DNA of 64,000 nt, from NCBI GenBank assembly GCA_018806985.1, contig JADANN010000098.1:558001-622000 (forward strand), given 5' to 3'. Both the position numbers and the translations under genes were made by a program. Of this stretch, positions 6,889 to 62,265 are shown one piece after another. Each line of letters begins with the position of its first letter. Positions within the stretch are counted from its first letter, which is position 1. The DNA is from Angiostrongylus vasorum (taxonomy: Eukaryota > Nematoda > Chromadorea > Rhabditida > Metastrongylidae). The notes beneath the pieces were generated by a model that did not search any database, was not told the DNA's origin, and worked only from the letters and a program-made list of their open reading frames with translations.

Positions 6889-9800
6889 TGCAGCATCACC
6901 GAGCATGGCTTCTTATAATCGTTATATTCTGCGAACAACTATATCCTTTGGATGCGAGACGAGGCGGAATTCTGGGCGGATCACGATCCAGAGGATCATC
7001 AGCTGCACGAATGGGCAGCGGGGGCGTTTTTGGAAAAGGAGGAGGTTCGAAAGCGATGAAAATTATTAACGGGGCACTAGGGTTGCTACAGAATTTCCTG
7101 TGGACGTTGATAAGGCTGCGTCATATTTGGCCGTGATCTCTGGTGCTCACTCGCCTTCTGTTGTCGCTATCGGCGAAGTGACGATTAGTGGGGGCAAATC
7201 TTTTTGTTCCTGTATTTTGTTCTAGAAATCGCTGTGAGTATTATTTTTACATCCGTCTTCGGAAAAAAGAAAAATGAAGCGAAAGCAAAAATGGAAGAAA
7301 AAATCTTTTTCATAACTCAAAAGACCGACTTTCTATAAACCTCGGCATAAATAGTTGATATATTTATTTATATGATCTCATAAACTGATCTTCTTTAGCT
7401 GATGCGAGGTTCGTATAGGTCTTCGTTGTCGTTGTCGTTGTTGTTGGTGTTGTTGATCGATGGCTGACGTTTCGGCGATTTCGCCTTCCGCAGAACCTGG
7501 ACGTATTTTGTATTAGAATGCTTTAATTATTCGCTGGAAAAGGCTACAATATTAATGAAGATCAGAGTTTTAAATAGATGGTGGGTTAGGATGATACGGT
7601 CAAACTGAAAGGCTACCCACCGTGATGTTACGATTGGGATTGACCCACACTTGTTCACGTGGGGTCGCAAGCACGACACAGCCCGGGGTCAAAATATCAT
7701 TTTAAAATAGGGCGCCAGGTCACGTCTGATAGTGAGGCATTCGTCTTTCCGGTTCATCTTTGGATTTTTGAAATTTATCGAAACGCTTCAAGAGTTTTGC
7801 GCGTAGATGCTTTCGACTCCTGCGCTAGGATCCGCACAGTCAGTTCAAAATCATCGCCGTTGTGCTTCTGTGCCCTATGCGTACCTAGAAGAGTGTTTTG
7901 ACGAATTTTAACTTTCCCATCTAGATGTTCTTTTATGCGGACACAAAGTGGTCTACCCGTTTCCTCAATAGATTCCTCACTCCCGTTAGGGACAGATCAT
8001 ACAGTTTTCTGAGCTGCACAAACGATCATGGAGACGGTTGCGAACTAACTGACGGCGTAGGGTATTGGGTGGGATGTCAATAATCATTATATAATTTTCA
8101 CGACCACTTTTTCTTAAGCATCTCTTAATGGCGTAACTTATTTCATTTGATATGAAGGGTAGCTTTAAAGGGATCTTACTTATGTCTTTTTTTCTTTGAT
8201 TCCATTAGCACTACGACGGCGGAGTTCAAGCCCGAAGTCGTCATCAATTCTAAGCAGCGGCTTGCTCTGGACCTAAACAATAAAACTTCTGCTGATGACA
8301 TTTTAAGCATCCTTTATTAAAAATGAGCCTTAGAATAGTAAACTATTTGCTAGGAGTTTAAACTGGGGATCCATTAACACTCTTGATGTTGTTTCTAACG
8401 ATCATATAAACGTTTGTTGTTTAGTTCACCAACATCGACCTCATCAAACTGGCCACGGTACAGGATGGGGACATAGCGAAGGTGGCTGGGGCAGCGGAGG
8501 TCGGCAACAACATGGTAAGCGCATTTCTTGTTGCTAGACTAGGTATTCATGCTTCTGTGAGATCGTAAGAGATTTTTTTTGCGCCAGGATAGGTCCTCAG
8601 TGCCTTGCGATAAGCCGGTGAAGAAGGTAGTGTTGTCATAAATCGTACATAAACCACTAATTTTGAGAATTTACATAGATCTAAGCTTCAACACATCTTC
8701 CTGATTTTATTGGTGTGCCACTACGTGAGCAAGTTCATCGTTCCTGGTATCATGAGAAGGTCGTGTCAAGTTATTCCAAATTGCCACCGCAAGCAGAGTC
8801 ACCGGTTGCCGTAGGTCGGAGTAGGATTTCCCATTTTAGGGGCAAGTTTTTCAAGGACTGCAGCATTTTTGTCATTCGCTTAGTATTAGTTAAAGCCCTG
8901 AATAGAAATGGCAAACTGGCACTCGGCTTGGTGAGCGTGTTGGAAAGATGAGACCCTTTCTGCACACCACAGTTGGTCTTCCAGTATGTCCTCTTCTCAC
9001 ATTGTGTTGTTAGAACATCGGAGGACTTTCTAGAACTTTGAAGAAATCTCCGCACATTTTAACGAAAAGAATTTGCTTTTCTGGGTATTCATTATCCATT
9101 ACGGAAGATTCGAGATAGGAGTGTAGAATGTCGCTGAAAGCCCAATTCTGTGAAGTTTTTTTAATAGAAGGTATGGAAAAGTTCGGAGAATAAGATCTGT
9201 GCGTTTAAATTGCTTTTAGTTCTGAAGCACTCCGTTTTCATTATCCAGAAATCGATTCGTCAACGTTTCAGGAATGGGAAGCAGTTGGGGTGGCGGTCGG
9301 TCGCAGAATCCAAAGTGAGTGGTTTTTGTTATTATAGAAATTGATTGATTCTGAGAATATTTCCTTTGCAAGTTTATTAGTAGCCACGACTACAATGAAA
9401 TTCACGAGAGGACATCTCTCCCTCTCATGAATTACGAGTAAGTGTGACACCGGTGTAATGCAAACACGTCTTAGGGATTCTAGTCGTAGTTTCACGAATC
9501 TTGTCCTTAACTTGTTTTCCAGCAATAGTGTTTTTAAGCAGAGAGCGGATAGCACAGTGGCAGTGATGTCCGTCATCGTGAGCGTGGTGCTAGTTCGATT
9601 CCGCTCCGGCCAACCAAGCCTCTCATCCCTCCGGGGTCAGGGGAAATTGGTACTGGACTTCTCTGGGAAAAATCACTCTCTGTAATCAATTGGGAACGCT
9701 CCATCCCGGCTATCTCAGGACTCAGGGGAGAATTGCTCGACGAGCATTCTCTACGGCATCTAAGATGAAATGAAAATCCTCAAGCAGCAACATAAGCCAC

Positions 9801-12400: not shown

Positions 12401-12640
12401 TGTTGAGCAAACACGAGGTGTTAAGTTGCTTCCTATTCCGTTAAAGCCGACGTTTCTGCGAACATCGCGTTCTTCAGAGCCTGGAAAAGTCAAGCTAACC
12501 GCAATCTACCCAGCCAAACACTTCCATAAACAAACAAAAAATTGCTATGATTCTAAGTGCTAAGAAAACCAAGATTTTAACCACGTTGAACACAGAACCG
12601 CTTCTTCGCATATTCACCGCTTTCTGTGAATCTTCCACTG
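12400..12640 (-). mobile_element. Penelope 3' end with hammerhead relic
   Basis: Minus-strand PLE terminal region, identified by the CTCTGAAGAA...GAAACGTC motif at 12481-12445 and flanking CCAGGCTC. It is the 3' end of the PLE whose coding part continues at 15150-17300; the two are separated by a LINE-A insertion. Confidence 0.6.
12445..12481 (-). ncRNA. Hammerhead-like motif
   Basis: Minus strand: GGCT-CTGAAGA-ACGCGATGTTCGCA-GAAA-CGTC-GGCT. Both core boxes are intact. Stem II can form GCGA/TCGC with an unpaired A on each side; stem I is weakened by wobble pairs. Activity is uncertain. Confidence 0.45.
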
Positions 12641-15149: not shown

Positions 15150-17300
15150 AGTGAAGTACTCTGTAAGATCAGGTGTGATAACGGGGTATTCGCCATTGCG
15201 GGTCATTCTTGGATTCTTTGAATTTATCCAAAACGGTTGGAGAATTTGCACCCTGGTGTTTTCGATTCCTGTGCGAGGATGTTAGCTTATACTCTAGATT
15301 TTTCCCCGTTGTATCTCTGTGTCTTATTCATGCCTAGTGGAGTATTTGGTTTAAGTTTACTGACTACGTGTTCTTCTATACGTAGGAGAGTTGTTTACCC
15401 GTTTCGCCAACGTATTCGCCCCACATGTTTTACATTAGATCAGACAAACTGTACCCAAACTGATGCAATCACCGTCTCTTCCGTTAGGGTAAAGTGGGCA
15501 ATTTCACGTTGCACATGGACGGTCACGCAAGCGGTTGCGAACTAGCTGGCGTCTCACAGTGCTCCGTGGCATTTCAATTAGTGTTACTGAATTCTCTAGG
15601 CCAGTCCTTCTTCGGTAATGTTTTATAGCTGTGCTTATTTCATTTGAATTGAAGGGCAGGATAAAAGAGAGATTACTGTCGCTAGAGTCGTTGTTTGGGG
15701 GCTTGGGTTTTTCCTGTACACCTATCCTATGGAGCTGCAGTTCCATAGCCATTGGAAGTAGTTATTTACCACGCCGATTTCAAGGATTCCTCCTTCTGCT
15801 CTATCCCCTGTGCACAGGCTGGTGGCTGCTCGAAACATGTTTCTTGCAAGTACTTTTATCTGTGTGAGGGGTAAAAGGGAAGGTAATGAACCAGTACGTT
15901 TTTACTAGTTGGCTTTTTGGTACCTCTTCGTAATACAGCCGTTTTCGGGCGGGTTAATTTGAACGTTCAGAATTGGAGGCCAATTTTCTCTCGGATTCTC
16001 TGGGGTAAACTTAATGTGCTCTGACTGTGCATCCAATTGCCGTTTCTCAAAATACTTGTCCACCTCCTCTTGTGTTGAGCAAATGACGAAGCAATGAACT
16101 ATATATCTACACTAGAGTAATGGCTGGAGATCCGTTACTGGCGCTTCCACCTTAAACATAAATGCAAAATGGCAAGGCTTGGTGTCAATCGCTTTCCCAT
16201 TGCCAACGCTCTCCTTTGTGCGTAATAATTTCTGGACCATCTGAAGAATGAGCAGTTTAGGCACTCCTTTAAAACTGCCATCGATTGCTTTATCATGAAG
16301 CCTATATGTTTGTTGTTTGTTGTTGCTGTATGAGAAGTTTGAGCATGGCTTGCATAGCGGAGTCATTCGACACGGCTGTATAATGGGCAGAAACGGCGAA
16401 GGACTGCGTCATGTACGTGCTGTTAGGATGCGCATAACATAGACGACCCAGGAACACCTGGTTGTTCATTAGATGGGCTGGAATGTGTTCTAACAACTGG
16501 GCGAGGATTGATGCTATAAACCACGTTATTCTTTCCGTTGGCCTACATAACTAATGATAAGTCTAATCGTAAGTAACAGTGGATCGATAGACACAAGATC
16601 ATCACTGGGTACTAACTTACGAGTTTTGATAAGTAAGTATAAGACAGGACATGTTGATAAATCAACTTTGAGCTGAGAGATGGCTTTAATCGAGCAGCTC
16701 TTGGCATTTCGACTCATTCGTGGTCCATTTTTCGGTATTGACATTTGACCTCCTTCCCAGACTTTGGGCGAAAAAAGGAACCATCTTCAAGATACTTTTT
16801 GCTATCTCAATATCGACTGATGAGAATTTGCTACAAGCTCTCCACCCTTATCACTAACGGATAGTCTTATGTTCTTCATCCTTATCAGCTGTTGTGCCTC
16901 CCGCACACCATATTTTTACACTTCCGTGAGGTTGGAGTGATATCTCTTCACCCAATAATGATTAAGAACTTCGAAAGTTTCATCCGTAAATATTCGAAAC
17001 TTAACAAATTTAACACCAACTTTATTACTGAGTTCTTGTTGTCTAAAGAACGGTTGAGGAAATAGTGGTACTGCTAGTGTCCCTATTTGTTGTTGTTCGC
17101 ACCTATTTAGCGCTTTATCCCTAGCTTTTTTGCGGCGTCCATCGTGAAGTTCATGTAAACTACATTCCAACTTACACAAACATACCGTAGAAATTGGTTC
17201 GGATGGTGAGAAATTTTGTCCTAAGTCTAATAACGAGCACGCCCTGTCAGTGAGGGCCAAGCCTCCTATCACTGTTAGCCTTGAATTTCCTGGCACATTA
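15150..17300 (-). pseudogene. Penelope-like RT/GIY-YIG gene, degenerate
   Basis: Read on the minus strand from 17300: a PLE N-terminal region (GGLALTDRACSLLDLGQNF; LHELHDGRRKKARDKALN), reverse transcriptase at 16745-15880 (LLTIRLIISYVGQ; LLEHIPAHLMNNQVFLGRL; CFVICSTQEEVDKYFEKRQ; NVQIN), and a GIY-YIG region at about 15600-15170. Several frameshifts are present. At the catalytic site the YIDDC motif reads YIVHC, so both Asp residues are gone. It covers more of the PLE coding length than any other copy here, but is dead. LINE-A separates it from its 3' end at 12400-12640. Confidence 0.8.
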
Positions 17301-17369: not shown

Positions 17370-18070
17370 AGAATTCGATATAATTCAAATGCTGCCGAGC
17401 ACTCTAAGGCGCCAGCTGGTTCACAAACGCCTGTATTAACGTCTGTGTACAGCGAAATTTGCATAATATGTCCTAACGGTAGAGACGATGATTGCATAAG
17501 TGCCGGTACGGTTTATCTTATCTCTTGATAAGTGTGCGGGGCCAATACATTGGCGAAACGGGTAGACCACTGTGAGTCCGTATAAAAGAATACCTAGTCG
17601 AGAAATTTAAATTGATGCCAAGCACTCCACAAGGCACACTGGAAACAGAGACATAACGGGGATGATTTTGAAGCAGAAGTTAAAATCCTCGCACAGGAGT
17701 CGAAAACACCGGGGCGCAAAACTCTTGGAGCGTTCTGGGTAGGATCAAAAATGAACCTCAAAGAGGAACGCCTCGTTATCACACTTGATCTCACGCAGTA
17801 TTTAAGTCTGATAATTTAATCTAGGAGAAGAACATTACTTATCCATGTGGACTTTTTGGGGTTGGTCTCCACTTAATATATTCAGTGGAAGACCCATAGA
17901 AAGTGGTGAGTGTGCAAAGAAGCTATTCTGCGTTCAATGTGATAGAAATCCTAGTTTAGCATTTTTCTCTGCTTGGTTATGGAGGTGTTTAGTAGGGTAG
18001 ATTGAGGTCAACTCGACATCTCCATGCTCTGAGGAAGGTGAAGTCCGCCGAAACGCCAGTTTAACCGGAA
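17370..18070 (+). mobile_element. Inverted Penelope GIY-YIG fragment
   Basis: Plus-strand frames, broken by stops, carry PLE nuclease features: MLPSTLRRQLVHK, CPNGRDDDCISAGTVYLIS and QYIGETGRPL, then a hammerhead-like motif at 18026. It lies head to head with the minus-strand PLE at 17300, as in PLEs that start with an inverted partial copy of their own 3' part. Confidence 0.75.
18026..18060 (+). ncRNA. Hammerhead-like motif, decayed
   Basis: GCT-CTGAGGA-A-GGTGAAGTCCGCC-GAAA-CGCC-AGT. The core boxes remain, but the cleavage-site GTC reads GCC and stem II is imperfect. Likely inactive. Confidence 0.4.
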
Positions 18071-19010: not shown

Positions 19011-19329
19011 ACAGATAACATCATTGAAGAATGGAGAAAAAACTCTGGTTGTGAAGCTGGGATCTTGGAAGGTCTTAAAGGCGACGATCAAAGCCCTCTA
19101 GAGCCTCTAATGACCACTTTTGGTCCAATCAAATCGTAATCCTTCTTTTATACATCGTTCCAAGCGAGAAAAGCATTCTTTTCTAATCTTATCCTTCCTT
19201 AATGAGAAATATTATAATGATGGATTATACGATGTGGACATGATTCAAAGCGCCTAACAGCACGGCTCTGATGGAGGCGAAATCTTCGAAACGGGACTCG
19301 TGACAAAAACAGAAAGAATGAGTCCCACT

Positions 19330-19535
19330 CGTAAAATCATGGCTCTGACGAAGGCGAAATCGCCTTAACGTCAGCCATCGATCAACAAGAACAACAGCAA
19401 CAACAACAACAACGACAACGAAGACCTATATCAACCTCGCATCAGCTAAAGAAGATCGGTTTATAAGATCATTTAAATAAATATATCAACTAGCTATGCC
19501 GAGGTTTATAGAAAAGTCGGTCTTTTGAGTTGTTA
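19330..19535 (+). mobile_element. Penelope terminal region
   Basis: Plus-strand copy of the PLE 3' end: hammerhead-like motif (19341-19376), a CAA-rich tract, then GAAGACCTAT, CTCGCATCAGCTAAAGAAGA and a GACTTTTCTATAAACCTCGG-type end on the other strand. Nearly the reverse complement of 7313-7497. Together with 17370-18070 it may be the far end of the inverted part of the large PLE. Confidence 0.75.
19341..19376 (+). ncRNA. Hammerhead-like motif, GAAA lost
   Basis: GGCT-CTGACGA-A-GGCGAAATCGCC-TTAA-CGTC-AGCC. Stems I and II are perfect, but the essential GAAA box reads TTAA, so cleavage is not expected. Confidence 0.5.
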
Positions 19536-19539
19536 AGAG

Positions 19540-20700
19540 ATATTTGTAATCCAGTGCAGACGTTAATAGAAAGTCGTCATTGGTAACCGTTTTGTATTCC
19601 GAAGTGTAATAAAGGCAAAAAAGTGCAAAAAACTTGGAGGACGTATCAAACAATTTTTTTGGTTTCCGAGAGGGCTTTTTCCTATTTCCTGTCGCTCGCG
19701 CGAGTAAACATTTTTGAAGAAAATTCTGATAAAAATCGATATGGAGCTTTCAATCTGTTTCATAAGAAATCAATCGATGGTGCCCACTTTAGGATTGCGT
19801 CTGTGAGCTTTGGTCGACTTTAAAATTGGAACAATTAATACCTCGTTAACGGTTTCACTGAATTGAATGCATTCCAGTATTCTGTACGGGATTCAGTGTG
19901 AATAAGCAGAAGTTCAAGGGAAAAGAGGCTCAAATAAAACGATTTGAGACTTGTAACACGGGGAGAAGCTTATTCTATTAAAATCAAGGTTTTTTCATAG
20001 TTGGTCTCAAGCAAGGATTCTACAGGGTTCATTTCGGTACAATTTCCACTCAGTGATTTGTCCGTGGGACAAAGGTTTCCTTTCTTGAAAAATGTGTGAT
20101 ACCTTTACTAAGTTCACCACAAGCACTCGCCTGCCTACGTGAAGCAGAAGCAGATCTATCATCGTTCGAGTAAGTTCTACTTACATCGATAGTATCAACG
20201 TTACCGGATGGATTTGTCAAACTCTAGCTCTGCTGACGAAAATCTCTTGGCGAGCTACAATACAACTCTACAATAAGAAATCATTTTTTATTTACAACTG
20301 AGCATAAAAATAATCTGTAGTAGTGTAATAGGCGAGCTAAGCCCTGCAAAGAAATGTACGTCAAAACTTAATCATCAACAGAAAAATTTCAAAAAAATAG
20401 GTCGTATCCTGAGGAAACGCAGAACAAAAGTGGGATTGACCGCAAACGCATTCGTGTCCACCTGCATGCTGCATCCATAGAGGGCATCAGTTCCAGCAGT
20501 CTGGTTTAGTCATCCATGGTGATGATCATGCCCATGAGCATCAGGGTTTCATAAATATTAGTACCGAAAGAATGGCGATATCATTTTGTCGTCTTCCTAG
20601 AATGATGCGACTCCACGTTACAAGCGCCGCCACGCAAAATTTTTGTCAAATCCTACAGGAGCCTCCAAACTGTTACATACCTGCACCACATCATACATGC
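19540..20700. other. Non-coding stretch, nothing recognised
   Basis: AT-rich sequence with no supported gene or repeat. Short open frames are not backed by splice sites. Confidence 0.3.
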
Positions 20701-20705
20701 ATTTT

Positions 20706-20708
<3 letters not shown>

Positions 20709-20745
<37 letters not shown>
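20709..20745. repeat. (TA)n microsatellite
   Basis: Near-perfect AT dinucleotide run followed by further short TATA and CATA units to about 20775. The Tyr/Ile-rich open frame here is an artefact. Confidence 0.95.
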
Positions 20746-20746
<1 letters not shown>

Positions 20747-20779
20747 TATATGTAGCATATATATACATATACATACCCT

Positions 20780-30639: not shown

Positions 30640-30860
30640 ACAGTGTTTTTTTCTTAACCTATTAAATACTAGCTGACGTTTCCGCGGTGTCGTCTTCTTG
30701 AGAGCCTTGAATGGTCAATTTTACATGCAATCTTCTAGGCCAAACAAGTTCATAACCCAAGCAGAAAAAAACTCAACATATAAATTTCGTTCGTAGTACT
30801 AAACAGCCTTTTTTTAAACATTCAGCCCTTTGTTCCCTATAATTCATCCGGTTATTGTTA
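30640..30860 (-). mobile_element. Penelope 3' end fragment
   Basis: Minus-strand PLE terminal region recognised by the hammerhead-like motif at 30705-30671 and the TCTAGGCCAAAC block shared with 41610. The coding part of a PLE in the same orientation resumes at 33880-33595, beyond LINE-A. Confidence 0.55.
30671..30705 (-). ncRNA. Hammerhead-like motif, decayed
   Basis: Minus strand: GGCT-CTCAAGA-AGACGACACCGCG-GAAA-CGTC-AGCT. Core G5 is C (CTCAAGA), and stem II is not convincing. Probably inactive. Confidence 0.4.
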
Positions 30861-39930: not shown

Positions 39931-39937
39931 CCTTATC

Positions 39938-39975
39938 GGGCTTTGATGAAGGCGAAATCTGCCGAAACGTGAGCT
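39938..39975 (+). ncRNA. Hammerhead-like motif
   Basis: GGCT-TTGATGA-A-GGCGAAATCTGCC-GAAA-CGTG-AGCTA. The GATGA and GAAA boxes are present, but C3 is T and the cleavage trinucleotide reads GTG. Presumably a relic of a PLE end; little else of the element is visible around it. Confidence 0.45.
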
Positions 39976-40039
39976 ATCGTGAAATAAATGTTGTAATAAC
40001 AACCTCTCATCTGCTCACTGAAGAAGCCACCAAGCTATT

Positions 40040-41105: not shown

Positions 41106-41545
41106 TGAACTTTACGCGCCCCTTGCTAAAACATATACAGGAAGAATGAAGTTGTAATCCGAACACTAATTGCCTGGAACTTTAGTACAAAAACGAACTC
41201 TCGAGGACCTTTTTGAAGGTGGATGTCGATTGTTGCTTTCAGATGATCGCCGTCTACTACTAATGCGCACCCACGACCTCCTTTCATATCAAAACTCGTA
41301 TCTCTGGAATGAAGTTTTTCCGCTTATCCATGTGCTCGAAAGCTGTTTTCCAGCGCCGTCATTAGTAGTGGTATTTTACAACCCATGTTTCAGAACATGA
41401 AACAAAACGATATGTTCCCAGGATCGACTTTCTATTAACCTCAGCATTTGAATATGAATGCACCGTTTTCTTGTTCAGCAATTGCGAGGTTGTTAAACTA
41501 ACATACATTTACTTCCATAGAAAAACACAATACAATACAACGAGT

Positions 41546-41581
41546 AGCTGACGTTTCGGCAGTATCGCCTTCTTCAGAGCC
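41546..41581 (-). ncRNA. Hammerhead ribozyme candidate, core intact
   Basis: Minus strand: GGCT-CTGAAGA-A-GGCGATACTGCC-GAAA-CGTC-AGCT. It fits CTGANGA and GAAA with a one-base-pair stem III (A to U across CG) and cleavage after GTC. Stem II pairs GGCG with TGCC (one wobble); stem I is GGCT/AGCT with a wobble. One extra A precedes stem II, as in all copies here. Among the best candidates for activity. Confidence 0.65.
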
Positions 41582-41956
41582 TGGAAGGGTATACTGATAT
41601 ACAATTTACTGGGCCAAACGCTTCAGTAACACTTTCAAAAAAGACGAAAGACTTTATGGTAATTACATAATCAACAACTTGCCACCATAGCAGAGATGAA
41701 TGCCCAGAGGTCATACGCGACCTAATCCCGTATGTTCGCATCAATTTATGATGTGAAATGGTGCAGTCATCAACCTTATGCGACTATAATCAGCTGTTCT
41801 AACCTTCCTCATTGGAAGTCACGAAAAAAAAGCAGTGAGTGTTTCGAGAAGCTATTGATCATATAATTGGCATAGAGCTTTTTCTTCTTTTGTAAGTGTT
41901 GTTGAAGCGTTTAGCCTAATAAATTGTATACATTGTAATACCAGTATACCCTTCCT

Positions 41957-41992
41957 GGCTCTGAACAAGGCGATACTACCGAAACGTCAGCT
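41957..41992 (+). ncRNA. Hammerhead-like motif, G8 mutated
   Basis: GGCT-CTGAACA-A-GGCGATACTACC-GAAA-CGTC-AGCT. Inverted partner of the 41546 motif. Core G8 is C and stem II is weakened, so activity is unlikely. Confidence 0.5.
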
Positions 41993-42394
41993 ACTGTTGT
42001 ATTCCATTGTGTTTTTCTATGGAAGTAAATCTATGCTGTTTAACAACCTCACGATTTAGCTAAACAAGAAAACGACGCAAACGATATGTCCTTCTTCTGT
42101 TTGAGCGTACTATCTCATCCAGCTAAAATCATTTTAAATCCAATCTTTGTGGAATAAGTCGAAACCTATTGCAAAGAGGGATGAGAATGGAGTGGAAAAA
42201 GCGGGATTTACTTCAACGGCTGTTCTGCTTTTCCTATTGAGCGAATACATTGTAGCTTATTTATGTAATTCAATAGAGTTCTTGATTTAACGACTTAGAA
42301 AACGCCAAATAAGAACATTTTTTATGGGATGAATTAGACAGCGGAGAGACGGAGATTAAGACGGAGATTTTATATGGAACAGTTGGAAGCTATG

Positions 42395-43934: not shown

Positions 43935-44155
43935 TATGAACAACAGCCTCCCTGTATAAATGAGCAACTGCCTGGTGAGCATACCTCATTCGTGCGGTAT
44001 TCACAGAAGATCCGCCTCGGTACGACTACGAAGAAGCAAAATCGAAATAACGAACAACTGCATGGACCACCGACACGGATCACATCGGCTCTGATGAGAG
44101 ACGAAGACGCCGAAACTTTAGCCGGAATAAATATGTTTATCAACTTCGTGTAGGC
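43935..44155 (+). mobile_element. Short hammerhead-bearing element
   Basis: About 220 bp related to 53160-53385 and, reversed, to 48635-48845: CCTGTATAAA near the start, CGGATCACATCGGCTCTGAT at the motif, then AATAAATATGTTTATCAACT and TCGTGTAGGCTCG at the end. No coding capacity. Confidence 0.65.
44085..44126 (+). ncRNA. Hammerhead-like motif
   Basis: TCGGCT-CTGATGA-GAGACGAAGACGCC-GAAA-CTTT-AGCCGGA. Core boxes are perfect and stem I pairs GGCT with AGCC, but stem II pairs poorly. Activity doubtful. Confidence 0.5.
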
Positions 44156-47314: not shown

Positions 47315-47655
47315 CCGAGATATTTGCAAAACTCTGGACCGCAGGTGCCTATGGTGGGGAACGAACGCGCTATTGTCCTTTCCGGGGAGTAACGCGTTCA
47401 CCACCACACCATGCAGGTCCTTCGTTTCGCCCTGTCTCTCAGCTAGTTCTATCGATCTTTTTTGCCATCAGCAATCACCCGTCAACGGGATTGATCTGAA
47501 CTAGCTGAGAGACAGGCGGAAACGAAGGACCTGCATGGTAGTGGTGAAAGCGTTACTCCCCGAAAGGACAATAGCGTTCGTTCCCCACCATAGGCACCTG
47601 CGGTCCAGAGCTTTTGCAAATATCTCGGCTCCGTTGAAGTTATATTTCGCAATAT
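47315..47655. mobile_element. SINE-3 foldback (two inverted arms)
   Basis: A palindrome-like element: left arm about 47320-47455 and right arm about 47497-47650 are near-perfect reverse complements (TTTGCAAAACTCTGGACCGC against GCGGTCCAGAGCTTTTGCAA). The loop between them is about 40 bp. Each arm carries a tRNA-like stretch (GTGGTGAACGCG, CGTTCGTTCCCC). Confidence 0.85.
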
Positions 47656-48634: not shown

Positions 48635-48845
48635 TTACACGAGTTTGATAAAGATATTTATTCGGCAAACGTTTTGACGGTCATCTTCATCAGAACCGAT
48701 GATCCGAGTCGATGGTTCAAGCGGTTCGTGTTCTTAACGTAGGGTCTTCGTCGCGCACCGGGCTGATTCTTCCTCAGTGGAGCATCTCTCTCGAATAAGC
48801 CATAATCACCCAGAGATGCTCTTTTATACAGCACAATTGTTTTTG
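48635..48845 (-). mobile_element. Short hammerhead-bearing element
   Basis: Reverse-oriented relative of 43935-44155 and 53160-53385: GAGCTTACACGAGTTTGATA, ATTTATTCGGC, the hammerhead-like motif, CGATGATCCGAGTCGATG and GTGGAGCATCTCTCTCG. Confidence 0.65.
48662..48701 (-). ncRNA. Hammerhead-like motif, G12 mutated
   Basis: Minus strand: TCGGTT-CTGATGA-AGATGACCGTC-AAAA-CGTTTGCCGA. The CTGATGA box is perfect but GAAA reads AAAA. Likely inactive. Confidence 0.45.
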
Positions 48846-52400: not shown

Positions 52401-55400
52401 CTGTTGAGAAAGCTTGCCGAGTGCCCAACAGAAATTTGAATGCTTCTGCATTAGCCATTTTCCCTATGGAATGCTGAAAGAGAGGAAACGTTGCAAAGCG
52501 AACTGTACGCACTCCGTAGCTGTGCGCTAGTTCTCATGAACACAGATGTTTGTGTGATTGTGAATCATTCATGTACGAAGGTAAAACTAAACTGATGCAG
52601 TACGGACAAACAACTTATCTTCGGAATTCACTTCCAACATAGGGAAGGAGAAGGCAACATCTGGTTAACGTTAACACTTTAACAGTAAGCCATCTCGAGG
52701 CCGTCTACCCAGCGTTGTTCTGACCAGCTCATGATCTCTAATAACACAGCGGTAGTCAGTGACTATTTCTTTATTTGAAGCTGTGACTTTAAATTAACAC
52801 AGAATGGTAATCGTAACCTGGTTTAGCGTAATTGATTATCAGGGACTCGTTGCCAGCCATTGTTGTGAGGCGATCTACACGGTCAGCTCGTAGATTTGCG
52901 AAAAATTATCGACCGATGCGGAGATCCTTCAAGAAATACTTATGTATTTCTTGGTGACTACGTCGATAGAGGAACTCAAGTAAGACCAGGTTTTAGCTAA
53001 TCCTTGGAAGATACTATATAATGTTTCGAAAGCGACATTCGTTTAGCCTCGGTATGATCAATCAACATGTATTCCTTCTTTTGATAAGCTTACATGAGAT
53101 TGACAAACAATCTTTATTCGGCTTACGTTTCGAGTTCCCGGACAATTAAGATTATCAACAACCAGCACCCTGTATAAAAGAGTGTCGCCGTCTAAGAATG
53201 CCTTATTAGAGAGATGCTCCACAGAGGAAAATCCGACTCGATACGAAGACAAGGATGCCACCTTGACACGCCAAACAACTGTGGAACATTGACTCGGATC
53301 ATCGGCTCTGATGAAGACAAAGACCTCGAAACGTTAGCCGAATAAAGATTGTTTGTCAACCTCGTGTAAGCTCATCAAAGAGAAGGAATATGTATACTAC
53401 GCAAATTCTTCACTAATTTTTACGTCTAAGGTTTAGAGTTGGCAATTCTGTTGTTTGCCTATCAGATTCGCTATCCGGATCGGGTGTTTCTGTTACGTGG
53501 AAACCATGAAGATGTCAAGACGACCAGCACGTATGGTTTCTACGATGAATGTATGATAAAAATATGGCATACGAGGAGAATGGGTGATTTCAAGGCAGTA
53601 TTGAAAGCTTTTCATCTTATGGCACACCAAAGAAAAAAGACTTATTTAGAACCTGCCTAGCGAAACTTTAAACTTAAATGCAGCGTTAAGAGGGAGCGAG
53701 TTTGGAAATTCTGATAGTAGGAGACATAGGACCCACAAATTTATTTTTCTCGCTTATGAGATGAAAAGTAGTGAGAAACTCTGCTGATATATGTGTGAAC
53801 GTAGTGCGGTGTTCGACACTTGGATTCTTGGACGACCCGTCCACACTAGTTCTGCGGGCCCCAGCATAAATTCCACTTTTCGGAGTTTTGCTAGTTTAGC
53901 CATTGTGCTTTCCCGGAGTCGCGAGGTCAGCCTGGCCAAATTCTGCACCAGATCGTCACCACCGCAGGCAGTTGCCACCCTTGTGAATCAGAGAGAGATT
54001 TGCCACCATGCGACTAGTTTGATAACAGGACGGTGGTGGATCCTACTATTGGTTTACTGTTAGCTGTGCTTTCTGGTGGAAACGCTGAACTCCTCCTCAG
54101 CCTGGGAGACCCTGCTGGGTGGACGTAACCCCCTGCTGTAAATGGCAGCCCGACACCCAGGAACACCTCCCAGCCACGATAAGGCGGTAAACCTTTGAGA
54201 GGTGGTGCTTGATAATGTCTCTAAATCTGTTACGAAAGCAAAGGTAGGAGATATCGTTCCCGGATGAGAGACTAGTATTCCTTGCTAGATGGAAGGAAAG
54301 GTGCGCCTTAGCATGTGTGGAAAAGTACACGGGACAGCAACAGGTACTATGTTGAAAGTCAGGATTTAAGAGCTACAGAAGGAAATACGTCTAAAAAAAG
54401 CCTAGTGGCAGAGCATGAAATACTGAAAAGAATAGCCGAGGTCACTTTTGCAGCGCACAGTGGGTACCATAGTTAATGAAATTAAAGCTCGATTTTTGTG
54501 TAGATCGTTTGGTAGAACATGAATTAAATTATCTTATTTGTCAATAAGTAAGGGTTATTCAGGTTTACCTTGCACTAATCAACGCCTTCAACCACTTGCC
54601 GTTTTGCGCTCTTCTTGGCGAAAAGGTGCTTTGCATGCATGGAGGTCTTTCTCCTTATATCACCACATTAGAAGATATCGAAAGGGTTCGTTTAGATCTT
54701 TCTCTGGTTTTTTGTATTACCTAACCTCACACACAGATCTTCTGGAAGTGCAATGGTTATAGATGCTGGGCAATACGTGCGTGGTCACCAGTCCGCCCTT
54801 ATCCCTAGTCAATCCAGATGCTCGTCCTTCTGTAGTCCGCAAATTGGTAGCAAACTTATGCTGAAAGCTCCCTCTGATTCCTAAGAGACTATTTGAGAAG
54901 AAAATTTGGCAACGCTCTACTTGAGCTATCCCAGAACCACAGAGAGAATCCATTCGACTGCTCTTCAACGACATTCATGAAGAAGACAAGTTTCTCAACA
55001 AACAGCCGAACCTATACGCTCATAGGAGGACTTTCTTCAATAACACATGCGAGTCAACCAAGTTTCTTGCACTCTCTATAATATGCGAAATCGGGCCATA
55101 CAAATCATAAAAAATGATAAAAGAAAACAGCTCTTTGATGGTTAAGAGGTGGAAAAAACACTAAGTTTTTGTCTAATTGCTGACGGAAATTTGCAGATCC
55201 CACGTCCATCAATAATACCTCCATATGGTATAATGTGCGATATCGTTTGGTCAGATCCAGACGTCCTTCAAGTGAGGATCTCTTCTATTAAGTGGCTTAC
55301 ATGTTAAAAAACTGCGTATCAGTAGAAGATAAAACAGCAATATTACCACGTTTGCGATGGTACACCTTGATGTCAATGCCGACGTGTGGGCACTTCATTT

Positions 55401-59487: not shown

Positions 59488-59847
59488 GCATCTTCCAGAA
59501 AGATCGGACTACGCATACATCGAAAGAAGACTGAGTTCATGGAAAAACCATTGCGCGAAGGCGATCAGTTGAAACTGGATAACTGTCTAATTTCAGAGAC
59601 CACCTCCTATGTATAACTTGCGTGATCAATGGACACGAAAAATAATATGGAGAAGAAACTAGGTAGAAGAAGCAGAGCAGGTTGGGCGGTATTCTGGCCT
59701 CTCAAAGAAGCCACCGACCAAATTAAGAACCCGAAAATCCGTGCTCACCTTTTTTGATTCAACGGTCCTGTCAGCGCTCTGTTTTGATGAAGAGACGTGG
59801 GCTGATACTTCAACCACGTCAAGAATACTCCGTACTATTCACAGATC
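59488..59847 (+). mobile_element. LINE-B, 5' part of split copy
   Basis: Reads SSRKIGLRIHRKKTEFM, LDNCLISETTSYV, LGRRSRAGWAVFWPLKEATD and ILRTIHR. These are the post-palm regions of the LINE reverse transcriptase (compare GRKIGPRINQKKT in the 26040-24640 copy). It stops at a PLE insertion and resumes at 61841. Confidence 0.85.
59836..59847. repeat. Target-site duplication, left
   Basis: TATTCACAGATC, repeated exactly at 61841-61852 on the other side of the PLE. In the LINE-B reading frame the site is read once, as IHRS. Confidence 0.85.
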
Positions 59848-60000
59848 TTAATAACTCAAAAGACCGACTTTCTATAAACCTCGGCATAAATGGTTGATAT
59901 ATTTATTTATATGATTTTATAAATTGATCTTCTTTAGCTGATGCGAGGTTGGTATAGGTCTTCGTTGTCGTTGTCGTTGTTGTTGGTGTTGTTGGTCGAT

Positions 60001-60036
60001 GGCTGATGTTTCGGCGATTTCGCCTTCCTCAGAGCC
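60001..60036 (-). ncRNA. Hammerhead ribozyme candidate, left arm
   Basis: Minus strand: GGCT-CTGAGGA-A-GGCGAAATCGCC-GAAA-CATC-AGCC, identical to the motif in the right arm. All core positions fit; the cleavage triplet is ATC. Confidence 0.65.
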
Positions 60037-60419
60037 TGGACGTATTTTACATTAGAATACTTTAATTATTCGGTGGAAAAGGCGAAAGTATTAACGAAGA
60101 TCAAAGTTTTAAATAGATGGTGGGTTAGGATGCTACGGTCAAACTGAAAGGCTACTCACCGTGATGTTACGAGTGGGACTGGCCCACGCGTTGTTCACGT
60201 GGGGTCGCGAGCACGATACACCCCGGGGTCAAAATATCATTTTTGAAATAGGGCGCCAGGTCACGTGTGATAGTGAGGCATTCGTCTTTCCGGTTCATCC
60301 TTGGATTTTTGAAACTTATCCGAAAACAGAATAAAAATGTACGGCTTGTCGATTGCGCAACTAATGACTCTCTTAACACAGTGTCTTAGTTGTTCAATCT
60401 TCAGGTGGTCTGGAAAATA

Positions 60420-60914
60420 TTTTGCACAAATTAGAGGGTTGGCCATGGGACAGCGTTTAGCACAAGCCTTGCCAACGCTTTCATGTCTAAGCTGGTAGCT
60501 CCTGTTCTCGACCACCAACCCTTATTCTACTGTCGATACATAGACGACTGCTTCATCGTCTGTTCCACACAAGAACAGATGGATGAGTGCCTTGAATTGT
60601 TAGACCGACAGTCAGAGTATATAAAATTTACACGAAAAAAACAAACCGAAAACTGGCTTCCATTCTTAAACGTCCAGATAAAGCTCTCAGAAAGTGGCTA
60701 TATAACAAAGTGGTATCGTAAGCCATGTAGAAAGAACATACTAGTTCACTACCTCTCCTCTCATCCTTCACACATGAAAAAAGCACTTATCAAAAACTTG
60801 TACCGTACGGCTAAAAATATGTGCACAGGAGAAGAGGAAAGGAAGGAATCGCAAAACCTCGCACGAAAAATCGCCATTTCCAATGGCTACGACGTAGAAG
60901 GCACTCGGGGTTAG
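60420..60914 (+). pseudogene. Penelope reverse transcriptase, truncated
   Basis: GLAMGQRLAQAL leads, after a one-base deletion (a GG read as G near 60467), into the main frame: LVAPVLDHQPLFYCRYIDDC (catalytic YIDD kept), FIVCSTQEQMDECLELLD, NWLPFLNVQIKLSESGYITK and WYRKPCRKNILVHYLSSHP, ending at TAG 60914. Fingers and N-terminal domains are missing, so it is not a working enzyme. Confidence 0.85.
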
Positions 60915-61089
60915 GCAAAAAACGTAAGGTAGTTCTCCCAAAACAATGTTTCGGACGTAAGTAAGATTCCTTTTAAGCTACCCTTCATATCAAATGAAAT
61001 ATGTTACGCCATTAAGAGATGCTTAAGAAAAAAGTGGTCTTGAAAATTATATAATGATTATTGATATACCGCCCAGTACCCTATGCCGT

Positions 61090-61499
61090 CAATTAGTTCG
61101 CAACCGTCTCTATGATCGTTTGTGCAGCTCAGAAAACTGTATGATCTGTCCTAACGGGAGAGACTGGGGATTGCATGAGTTCAGGTATAATATACTTGAT
61201 CTCATGTAACGCATGCGGTGAGGAATATATTGGGGGAAACGGGTAGACCACTTTGTGCCCGCATAAAAGAACATCTAGATGAGAAAGCTAAAATTCGTCA
61301 AAACACTCCACTAGGTACGCATAGGGCACAGAAGCACAACGGCGATGATTTTGAACTGACTGTGCGGATCCTAGCGCAGGAGTCGAAAGCATCTACGCGC
61401 AAAACTCTTGAAGCGTTTCGGATAAATTTCAAAAATCCAAAGATGAACCGGAAAGACGAATGCCTCACTATCACACGTGACCTGGCGCCCTATTTTTAA
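61090..61499 (+). pseudogene. Penelope GIY-YIG endonuclease domain
   Basis: Cys-containing linker (LVRNRLYDRLCSSENCMICP), then SSGIIYLISCNACGEEYIG (GIY-YIG type), GRPLCARIKEHLDEKAK and LEAFRINFKNPKMNRKDECL, stopping at TAA 61499. Two frame breaks: near 61170, and at a run of five G near 61236 where four would keep the frame. This domain nicks DNA for PLE insertion. Confidence 0.8.
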
Positions 61500-61705
61500 A
61501 ATGATTTTTTGACCCCGGGCTGTGTCGTGCTTGCGATCCCACGTGAACAACGTGTGGGTCAATCCCAATCGTAACATCACGGCGGGTAGCCTTTCAGTTT
61601 GACCGTAGCATCCTAACCCACCATCTATTTAAAACTTTGATCTTCGTTAATACTTTCGCCTTTTCCACCGAATAATTAAAGTATTCTAATGTAAAAATAC
61701 GTCCA

Positions 61706-61741
61706 GGCTCTGAGGAAGGCGAAATCGCCGAAACATCAGCC
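61706..61741 (+). ncRNA. Hammerhead ribozyme candidate, right arm
   Basis: GGCT(706-709)-CTGAGGA(710-716)-A-GGCGA/TCGCC(718-729)-GAAA(730-733)-CATC-AGCC(738-741). Stem I has 4 pairs and stem II 4-5 pairs with a tetraloop; stem III is one A to U pair. Cleavage is expected after C737. One unpaired A sits between the core and stem II. This minimal type-I form is known from Penelope-like elements. Confidence 0.7.
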
Positions 61742-61840
61742 ATCGACCAACAACACCAACAACAACGACAACGACAACGAAGACCTATACCAACCTCACA
61801 TCAGCTAAAGAAGATCAGTTTATAAGATCATATAAATAAA

Positions 61841-62265
61841 TATTCACAGATCGCCAGAACGATATGGAATGCGAAACTGTGATCTTCAAAATTTGCCTCA
61901 TACCCGGGATCGAGAAGAACATACAACAATAGCGAAACCAAAATGGACCGGTGAGACAACGAGAAGAACAGAGAGTAGATGGACGAAAAGAACTGTAGAA
62001 TGGACTCCATGAGAACGGAAGCATCTCCTGGGACGGCCACCTACACGTTGGGCGGATGTGTTCGTAACCAAAATTAGTCAGCTGTACTCGCAGTTGCAGT
62101 TATTTTGCAGATTACGGTGTCAGACTCGCGTTCTTCTTCATGCTCGGATAAGACCATCACCATGGACAACGACTGCCAGAAAAGGAAATGAATGGCAAAT
62201 GTGCTGGGGTCCACATAACTCGTGAAGACGGAACGTCCAAGTGTCCAAGTATCCAAGTAGTGATT
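61841..62265 (+). mobile_element. LINE-B, 3' part of split copy
   Basis: Resumes as SPERYGMRNC, then TIAKPKWTGE, SRWTKRTVEWTP and, after a frame change, GRPPTRWADVFVTKISQL, and near the end TTTARKGNEWQMCWGPH. The 3' end carries GTGAAGACGGAACGTCCAAG followed by a short TCCAAGTA-type tandem tail. Confidence 0.85.

Follow-up and report, generated by a model that had tools for sequence, protein, structure and literature searches.

The window analysed here, a 64,000-nucleotide stretch of the Angiostrongylus vasorum genome that covers 558001-622000 of its contig, contains a 5′-truncated Penelope-like insert in which two pseudo-LTR arms lie head to head around remnants of coding sequence, each arm carrying one copy of a minimal hammerhead motif. 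Further hammerhead copies, some with an intact core and others degraded, are found elsewhere in the window on both strands (Table 1). By their stem II hairpins we distinguish three families, which we call A1 (GGCG-AAAT-CGCC), D/E (GACG-AAGA-CGTC) and B (GGCG-ATAC-TGCC).

Table 1. Position and character of the insert, its parts and the hammerhead copies of the window
Feature	Position	Strand	Remarks
5′-truncated Penelope-like insert	59848..61840 (ends approximate)		two arms head to head
Target-site duplication, 12 bp	59836..59847 (left); 61841..61852 (right)		TATTCACAGATC
Inverted arm, with tail	~59848-60325	-	carries the 60001 hammerhead
Direct arm, without tail	to ~61840	+	carries the 61706 hammerhead
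Reverse transcriptase fragment	60435..60914	+	Pfam RVT_1 PF00078, E 1.8e-7, above cut-off
GIY-YIG endonuclease fragment, C-terminal	61200..61499	+	~205 nt 5′ of the hammerhead
Minimal type-I hammerhead motif	61706..61741	+	in order: GGCT (stem I, 4 bp with AGCC), CTGAGGA (core, all core nucleotides), extra A (61717), GGCG, AAAT, CGCC (stem II, 4 bp, with loop), GAAA, CA (2 nt), T (U16.1), C, AGCC
Hammerhead in inverted pseudo-LTR	60001..60036	-	all 36 letters identical to the 61706 motif
Hammerhead, one change in the core (CTGCGGA)	7460..7499	-	endonuclease fragment upstream, 7963-7704(-)
Family B hammerhead, core intact	41544..41583 (motif 41546-41581)	-	GGCG-ATAC-TGCC
Family B copy, altered core	41955..41994	+	head to head with 41544(-)
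Family D/E copy, core intact	53302..53341 (motif 53304-53339)	+	stem II damaged; stem I 6 bp
Family D/E copy	44085..44125	+	stem II preceded by two extra bases
Hammerhead, core letters intact	12443..12483	-	stem II altered
Degraded hammerhead	39937..39977	+	TTGATGA
Degraded hammerhead	30669..30708	-	CTCAAGA
Degraded hammerhead	19339..19378	+	GAAA changed to TTAA
Weak degraded copy	19262..19301	+	E 0.029
Degraded copy	18023..18062	+	3′ of endonuclease fragment 17549-17804(+)
Degraded D/E-like copy	48662..48699	-	

The host element

The reverse transcriptase fragment of the insert has 34 relatives, and the 24 that carry an organism label are all from nematodes, for example the strongylids Angiostrongylus, Haemonchus, Necator and Ancylostoma; a sequence search of the PDB with a reverse transcriptase fragment gave 0 matches. 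On its own, the endonuclease fragment had no Pfam match. It is 89% identical over 89 amino acids to a stretch of a sister copy (L009), and that stretch matches the GIY-YIG family PF01541 (E 3.1e-7), the reverse transcriptase piece of the sister copy lying under the Pfam cut-off (27.8 versus 29.6 bits). The left (-) and right (+) arms of the insert share 428 bp at 96%, the left being about 47 bp longer, and their hammerheads point outward. The insert thus combines a direct with an inverted pseudo-LTR, a tail on one side and a target-site duplication. Reverse transcriptase, GIY-YIG domain and inverted pseudo-LTRs with a target-site duplication together make this a Penelope-like retroelement with the hammerhead in its pseudo-LTR, and so bear out the original prediction, which had placed the motif in Penelope ends. 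A one-sided tail is an optional feature of Penelope according to excerpts of PMC3846280.

Four window hammerheads (those at 61704 and 59999, around the motifs of the two arms, and those at 7460 and 18023) each have an endonuclease fragment whose end is some 205-220 nt upstream, and the Penelope-like setting is direct for these four only; near the other window hammerheads, the sequence inspected held no coding remnant. A second, more distant reverse transcriptase fragment of the Penelope-like type, 46% identical, is seen at 15739-16207(-), and another endonuclease fragment at 17549-17804(+). As judged by eye, the D/E pair 53158(-)/53302(+) (52900-53560) sits between the phosphatase-like motifs GDYVDRG and RGNHE, which we take to be protein phosphatase motifs, the interval perhaps being an intron of a PP1-type gene. 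Also by eye, an AATAAA resembling a poly(A) signal comes after the D/E hammerhead, within a few bases of the cut, in 11 of 14 copies (44085-44140, 53302-53350, L067-L078). Elsewhere in the window, the inverted repeat at 47430-47517, possibly a small palindromic transposon, matches mir-2300 below threshold on both strands, and an AT-rich simple repeat at 20682-20772 has sub-threshold matches to microRNA families.

Hammerhead motifs of the window

The 61706 motif contains every nucleotide of the type-I core (C3 U4 G5 A6 N7 G8 A9, G12 A13 A14, the A15.1-U16.1 pair and H17) and has the type-I layout of an open-ended stem I (4-6 bp across the copies) and a stem II closed as a hairpin (4 bp), with cleavage predicted between 61737 (C17) and 61738. 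It departs from the type at two places. Stem II does not join directly to A9, an extra A intervening, and where a single molecule should form a stable stem III there is the A15.1-U16.1 pair alone, with two bases in between. Stem III had been predicted with a two-base loop; the two bases are indeed present, but the stem itself amounts to that single A-U pair.

An earlier count of about 13 motifs on both strands agrees with the results of a covariance model that we built from 32 aligned copies and ran on the window unfiltered: it gives 13 matches with E ≤ 1.1e-4, followed by a 14th with E 0.029, eight of the 14 being training sequences, one (59999) having the same motif letters as the copy at 61704, and five lying outside the training set (19339, 41955, 48662, 18023 and 19262), some of them with relatives in it. 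The pattern CTGANGA-A-N8..14-GAAACNTNAG matches the window four times, at 61710(+), 60032(-), 41577(-) and 53308(+), and was found in 0 of 100 dinucleotide shuffles, while a stricter structural scan that also requires stem I retains three window copies and gives one copy in 1 of 300 shuffles. The four pattern matches are exactly the copies that had been said to keep the whole core, but the stem II of the copy at 53302 is damaged, reading GACA-AAGA-CCTC (2 of 4 pairs) as against the family form GACG-AAGA-CGTC, which is exact in 5 of 12 fetched relatives.

The absence of a covariance match had been named as grounds for refuting the original prediction, and this check went against it: the Rfam hammerhead models give no match above threshold in the window. 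At gathering thresholds the whole window has 0 hammerhead matches, at E ≤ 10 it has nine matches with no hammerhead among them, and the motif region alone likewise gave none; three D/E copies yielded one Hammerhead_3 match, below threshold (12.8 bits versus a cut-off of 48.5, E 5.7). The miss is probably due to a stem III that has shrunk to A15.1-U16.1. One gapped-pattern scan of viral contigs found 0 motifs.

The extra A across the genome

Throughout the genome (279.9 Mb), exact copies of the three families summed carry the extra A in 4022 cases and lack it in 11 (A1, 1056 to 2; D/E, 738 to 1; B, 2228 to 8), figures that express copy number and not independent events, of which three families represent at most a few. 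Reversed-pattern controls gave 0 in all six genome searches. What separates the families is the sequence of stem or loop II and the base at N7, which is mostly G in A1, T in D/E and A in B among the matches listed (about 100 for each). Family D/E has U17 in 13 of 14 copies, a 6-bp stem I in 8 of 11 aligned rows and an A-U in place of a G-C pair in stem II; the A is kept in all three families. Within the window, all eight copies with a GGCGA arm among the 14 model matches have it, as had been stated for every such copy, but GGCGA stems are not its only setting, as the A is also present in the GACG/CGTC family. Among 59 distinct motifs taken from the loci, the base following the 7-nt core is A in 49, G in 7 and T in 3, the non-A motifs being single decayed copies, the two that have no such base and at least one chance match (L064).

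With these ratios in three families, the description of the extra A as a conserved family feature is confirmed, and we infer that it is inherited in the lineage of these Penelope-like elements and tolerated or used by the fold. It is quite conceivable, at somewhat less than even odds, that the A became fixed by neutral accident in the ancestor which these nematode elements share and has no role of its own in a ribozyme that works; this account is compatible with the mechanism we favour below. Inheritance from a single ancestor could explain all copies, the counts reflecting copy number. Yet A is retained in families whose N7 and whose stem II or loop II have diverged, in one family it was kept although stem I and the cut nucleotide changed too, and the exceptions to the 49 of 59 distinct motifs with A are decayed singles, the two without the base and the one chance match. 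The genome of this roundworm holds thousands of copies of a putative RNA-cutting motif, some of them at the ends of Penelope-like elements.

Conservation and the stem III palindrome

Stem II pairing is kept across the families, with G-C replaced by A-U at column pair 17-27 in 9 sequences. Both the covariation score (0.192 versus 0.153 shuffled) and the share of paired cells (86.4 versus 82.0% shuffled) were as high in 0 of 500 shuffles; no excess was seen in the number of pairs with both partners changed (3 versus 3.1 shuffled) or of further pair types (14 versus 13.6 shuffled). In 37 pseudo-LTR copies of one family that were not selected by motif, the 36-nt motif (agreement 0.953) does not stand out from the sequence around it, 52 of 311 windows being equal or better. 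This is the pattern to be expected if the copies are dead, and it gives no independent sign of selection.

The palindrome ACGT in stem III is present in 851 of the 1056 exact copies of A1 and in 497 of the 738 of D/E. The form ACAT occurs in 49 of 1056 A1 copies, and both window arms (61706 and 60001) have it and so are without the palindrome. A palindromic loop lets two hammerheads share stem III, as reported for Penelope-like elements in excerpts of PMC6466107. Modelled nearest-neighbour energies are -20.5 kcal/mol for the double hammerhead versus 2 × -11.1 (-22.2) kcal/mol for two single folds; under these rules the double hammerhead is not favoured, and energy support for the dimer was not obtained. 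A value of +29.6 for an ACAU dimer was attributed to an artefact that isolated pairs cause, and was not used.

Insert ends and reverse transcription

Head-to-head inserts like that of the window (59848-61840) are seen at L009-L017, L059, L060 and other loci. The 26 collected from the window and the fetched loci include L008 and leave out L029 (the query locus itself), L051 (with flanks like those of L037) and, as duplicates of other loci, L004, L005 and L007; they pair a long with a short arm in 20 cases, a long with another arm in 5 and two long arms in 1, with 0 short/short. Among the 17 inserts not picked via pseudo-LTR similarity, most of which had been chosen because they carry an exact motif or a pair of motifs (L059 and L060 because they lack the A), 14 are long/short. 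Flanks match over at least 7 bases in 16 of the 26 inserts versus 32 of 650 swapped-flank controls, and no flanking duplication of at least 7 bases accompanies the D/E pair near 53158/53302. When the 100 matches listed for family A1 were searched for near neighbours (≤5 kb), 9 of 11 were head to head.

Counted from the predicted cut at query position 264, the short end is reached after about 105 nt (367-377) and the long end after about 150 nt (405-421), the pseudo-LTR query itself stopping at 421. Insert ends thus fall 3′ of the predicted cut, and each arm was therefore copied from RNA uncut there; by their ends, the sampled integrated copies derive from RNA uncut at the copied hammerhead. 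No blast match to one pseudo-LTR starts exactly at the cut itself (query 265), the starts close to it being one at 262 (L060) and three near 275 that are low-identity edges. Copies made from cut RNA left no sign in this sample, in which long matches are favoured. A box like CAACCTCG..T.AGCT, noticed by eye downstream of the hammerhead in A1 (~61790) and in D/E (~53357), may be part of a reverse transcription start or binding site.

That each head-to-head insert combines two different RNA templates was first suggested by a mean arm similarity of 92.0% within inserts (22 of 29 pairs, those with enough columns) versus 90.2% between inserts. The claim proved mostly unsupported and was dropped: when 12 of 18 pairs were examined by a tree and AU tests, a shared origin was rejected for two of them (L029, p 0.018; L040, p 0.017; both uncorrected) and not for the other 10. 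For the window insert, the tree constrained to a shared origin scored higher, and a single source RNA or locus for both arms is suggested because both have the rare ACAT form.

Discussion

Our analysis leads us to propose, with a probability of about 0.75, that the 61706 motif is a minimal hammerhead of a Penelope-like element. Its core, its stems, its place in the element and the extra A are observed, and from these we derive a conditional account of how it would act. With no more than one A-U pair for a stem III, a copy on its own is expected to be nearly inactive. Pairing of two copies through the palindromic ACGU to form a double hammerhead would permit cleavage between H17 and 1.1; alternatively, the trigger could be a protein of the element that holds the fold, as in the anole element. 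Such cleavage would trim tandem or read-through transcripts of the element, and integration would use those RNAs left uncut at the copied hammerhead, because the insert ends, which we read as the points where reverse transcription began, are situated 3′ of it. The observation that anole mutants still insert fits uncut templates here. The extra A would have been inherited in the lineage, with a fold that tolerates or uses it. Several observations weigh against this account: the insertion beside A9, which is a departure from the consensus core; the missing Rfam match; a motif no better kept than the sequence around it; the two covariation measures without an excess; modelled energies that do not favour the dimer; the ACAT form of both window arms; and the reverse transcriptase piece of L009 that stays below the Pfam cut-off.

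Several of the same observations could be read in another way, namely that the motif is a dead, non-catalytic hammerhead relic, kept as an RNA structure that is bound by the protein of the element beside the reverse transcription start, the extra A having broken catalysis without being selected against. Insert ends that point to uncut templates, the absence of stem III, an extra core base in nearly all exact copies and the insertion in vitro of hammerhead mutants (excerpts of PMC11167929) are all consistent with such a relic. We nevertheless consider it unlikely, at perhaps one chance in five, since the core including G12, A13, A14 and A15.1-U16.1 is kept in the common form of three otherwise differing families, whereas N7, which is free to be any base, varies by family among the matches listed. 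Slightly less probable still is a version in which the extra A is itself functional, a core addition kept through at least three families of Penelope-like elements that would hold the single-copy ribozyme off and couple cleavage to ACGU pairing or to binding of an element protein; cutting would then be restricted to RNAs that have not entered integration, or to paired ones. Chance matches, or conservation through coding sequence only, which the shortness of the motif and the missing Rfam match might have suggested, are refuted by the shuffles (0 of 100 and 1 of 300), by thousands of exact copies against 0 in the reversed-pattern controls and by the position of the 61706 motif downstream of the end of the endonuclease ORF.

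On the preferred reading of a minimal hammerhead that would need a partner or a protein, the motif itself, with its Penelope setting, is an ordinary finding, since minimal type-I hammerheads borne by Penelope-like elements are already known. Excerpts of PMC7761336 and PMC6155905 describe hammerheads of this kind, without helix III, as a feature of Penelope-like elements, in line with the statement in the original prediction that type-I hammerheads occur in such elements of many animals. Their role in Penelope elements is called "still a mystery" in the 2020 review (an excerpt of PMC7761336). Among the papers listed for hammerheads and nematodes, titles and abstract openings revealed no native nematode hammerhead of a Penelope-like element. 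More than 4000 exact copies, spread over three families, depart from the core at the same place, and the extra base may matter for the way the motif acts.

Set beside the minimal hammerheads of Penelope-like elements (Cervera and de la Pena 2014; Lunse, Weinberg and Breaker 2017), as described in excerpts of the citing papers PMC7761336, PMC6155905 and PMC6466107, the present motifs have the same type-I layout and core, the same loss of helix III, the same position in the pseudo-LTR and, in their commonest form, the same palindromic stem III loop. They differ from those descriptions in the extra A between A9 and stem II, which our three families have in common. Natural hammerheads with an extra core base have been described by Perreault 2011, where the excerpted text of PMC3088659 mentions added bases following A6, within the GAAA stretch (U13a) and at position 2, and names none after A9. 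The retrozyme hammerheads of newt and axolotl resemble the present ones in their weak helix III and in a dimeric action of the kind proposed here, whereas these and other animal retrozymes have contacts between loop 1 and loop 2 and reside in short tandem repeats, not in the pseudo-LTRs of Penelope-like elements (excerpts of PMC7229834).

The closest parallel to the anatomy of our inserts is offered by Poseidon PAc of Anolis, whose hammerhead, according to excerpts of PMC11167929, cuts only with protein and whose hammerhead mutants still insert. There, two adjacent reverse transcription starts explain the tail, and as in the present element the hammerhead lies upstream of the two adjacent starts that define it. 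In Poseidon PAc the cut falls 26 nt and the reverse transcription start 111-118 nt into the ORF, so that by subtraction they are about 85-92 nt apart; in the element described here, the insert ends are about 105 nt and about 150 nt beyond the predicted cut.
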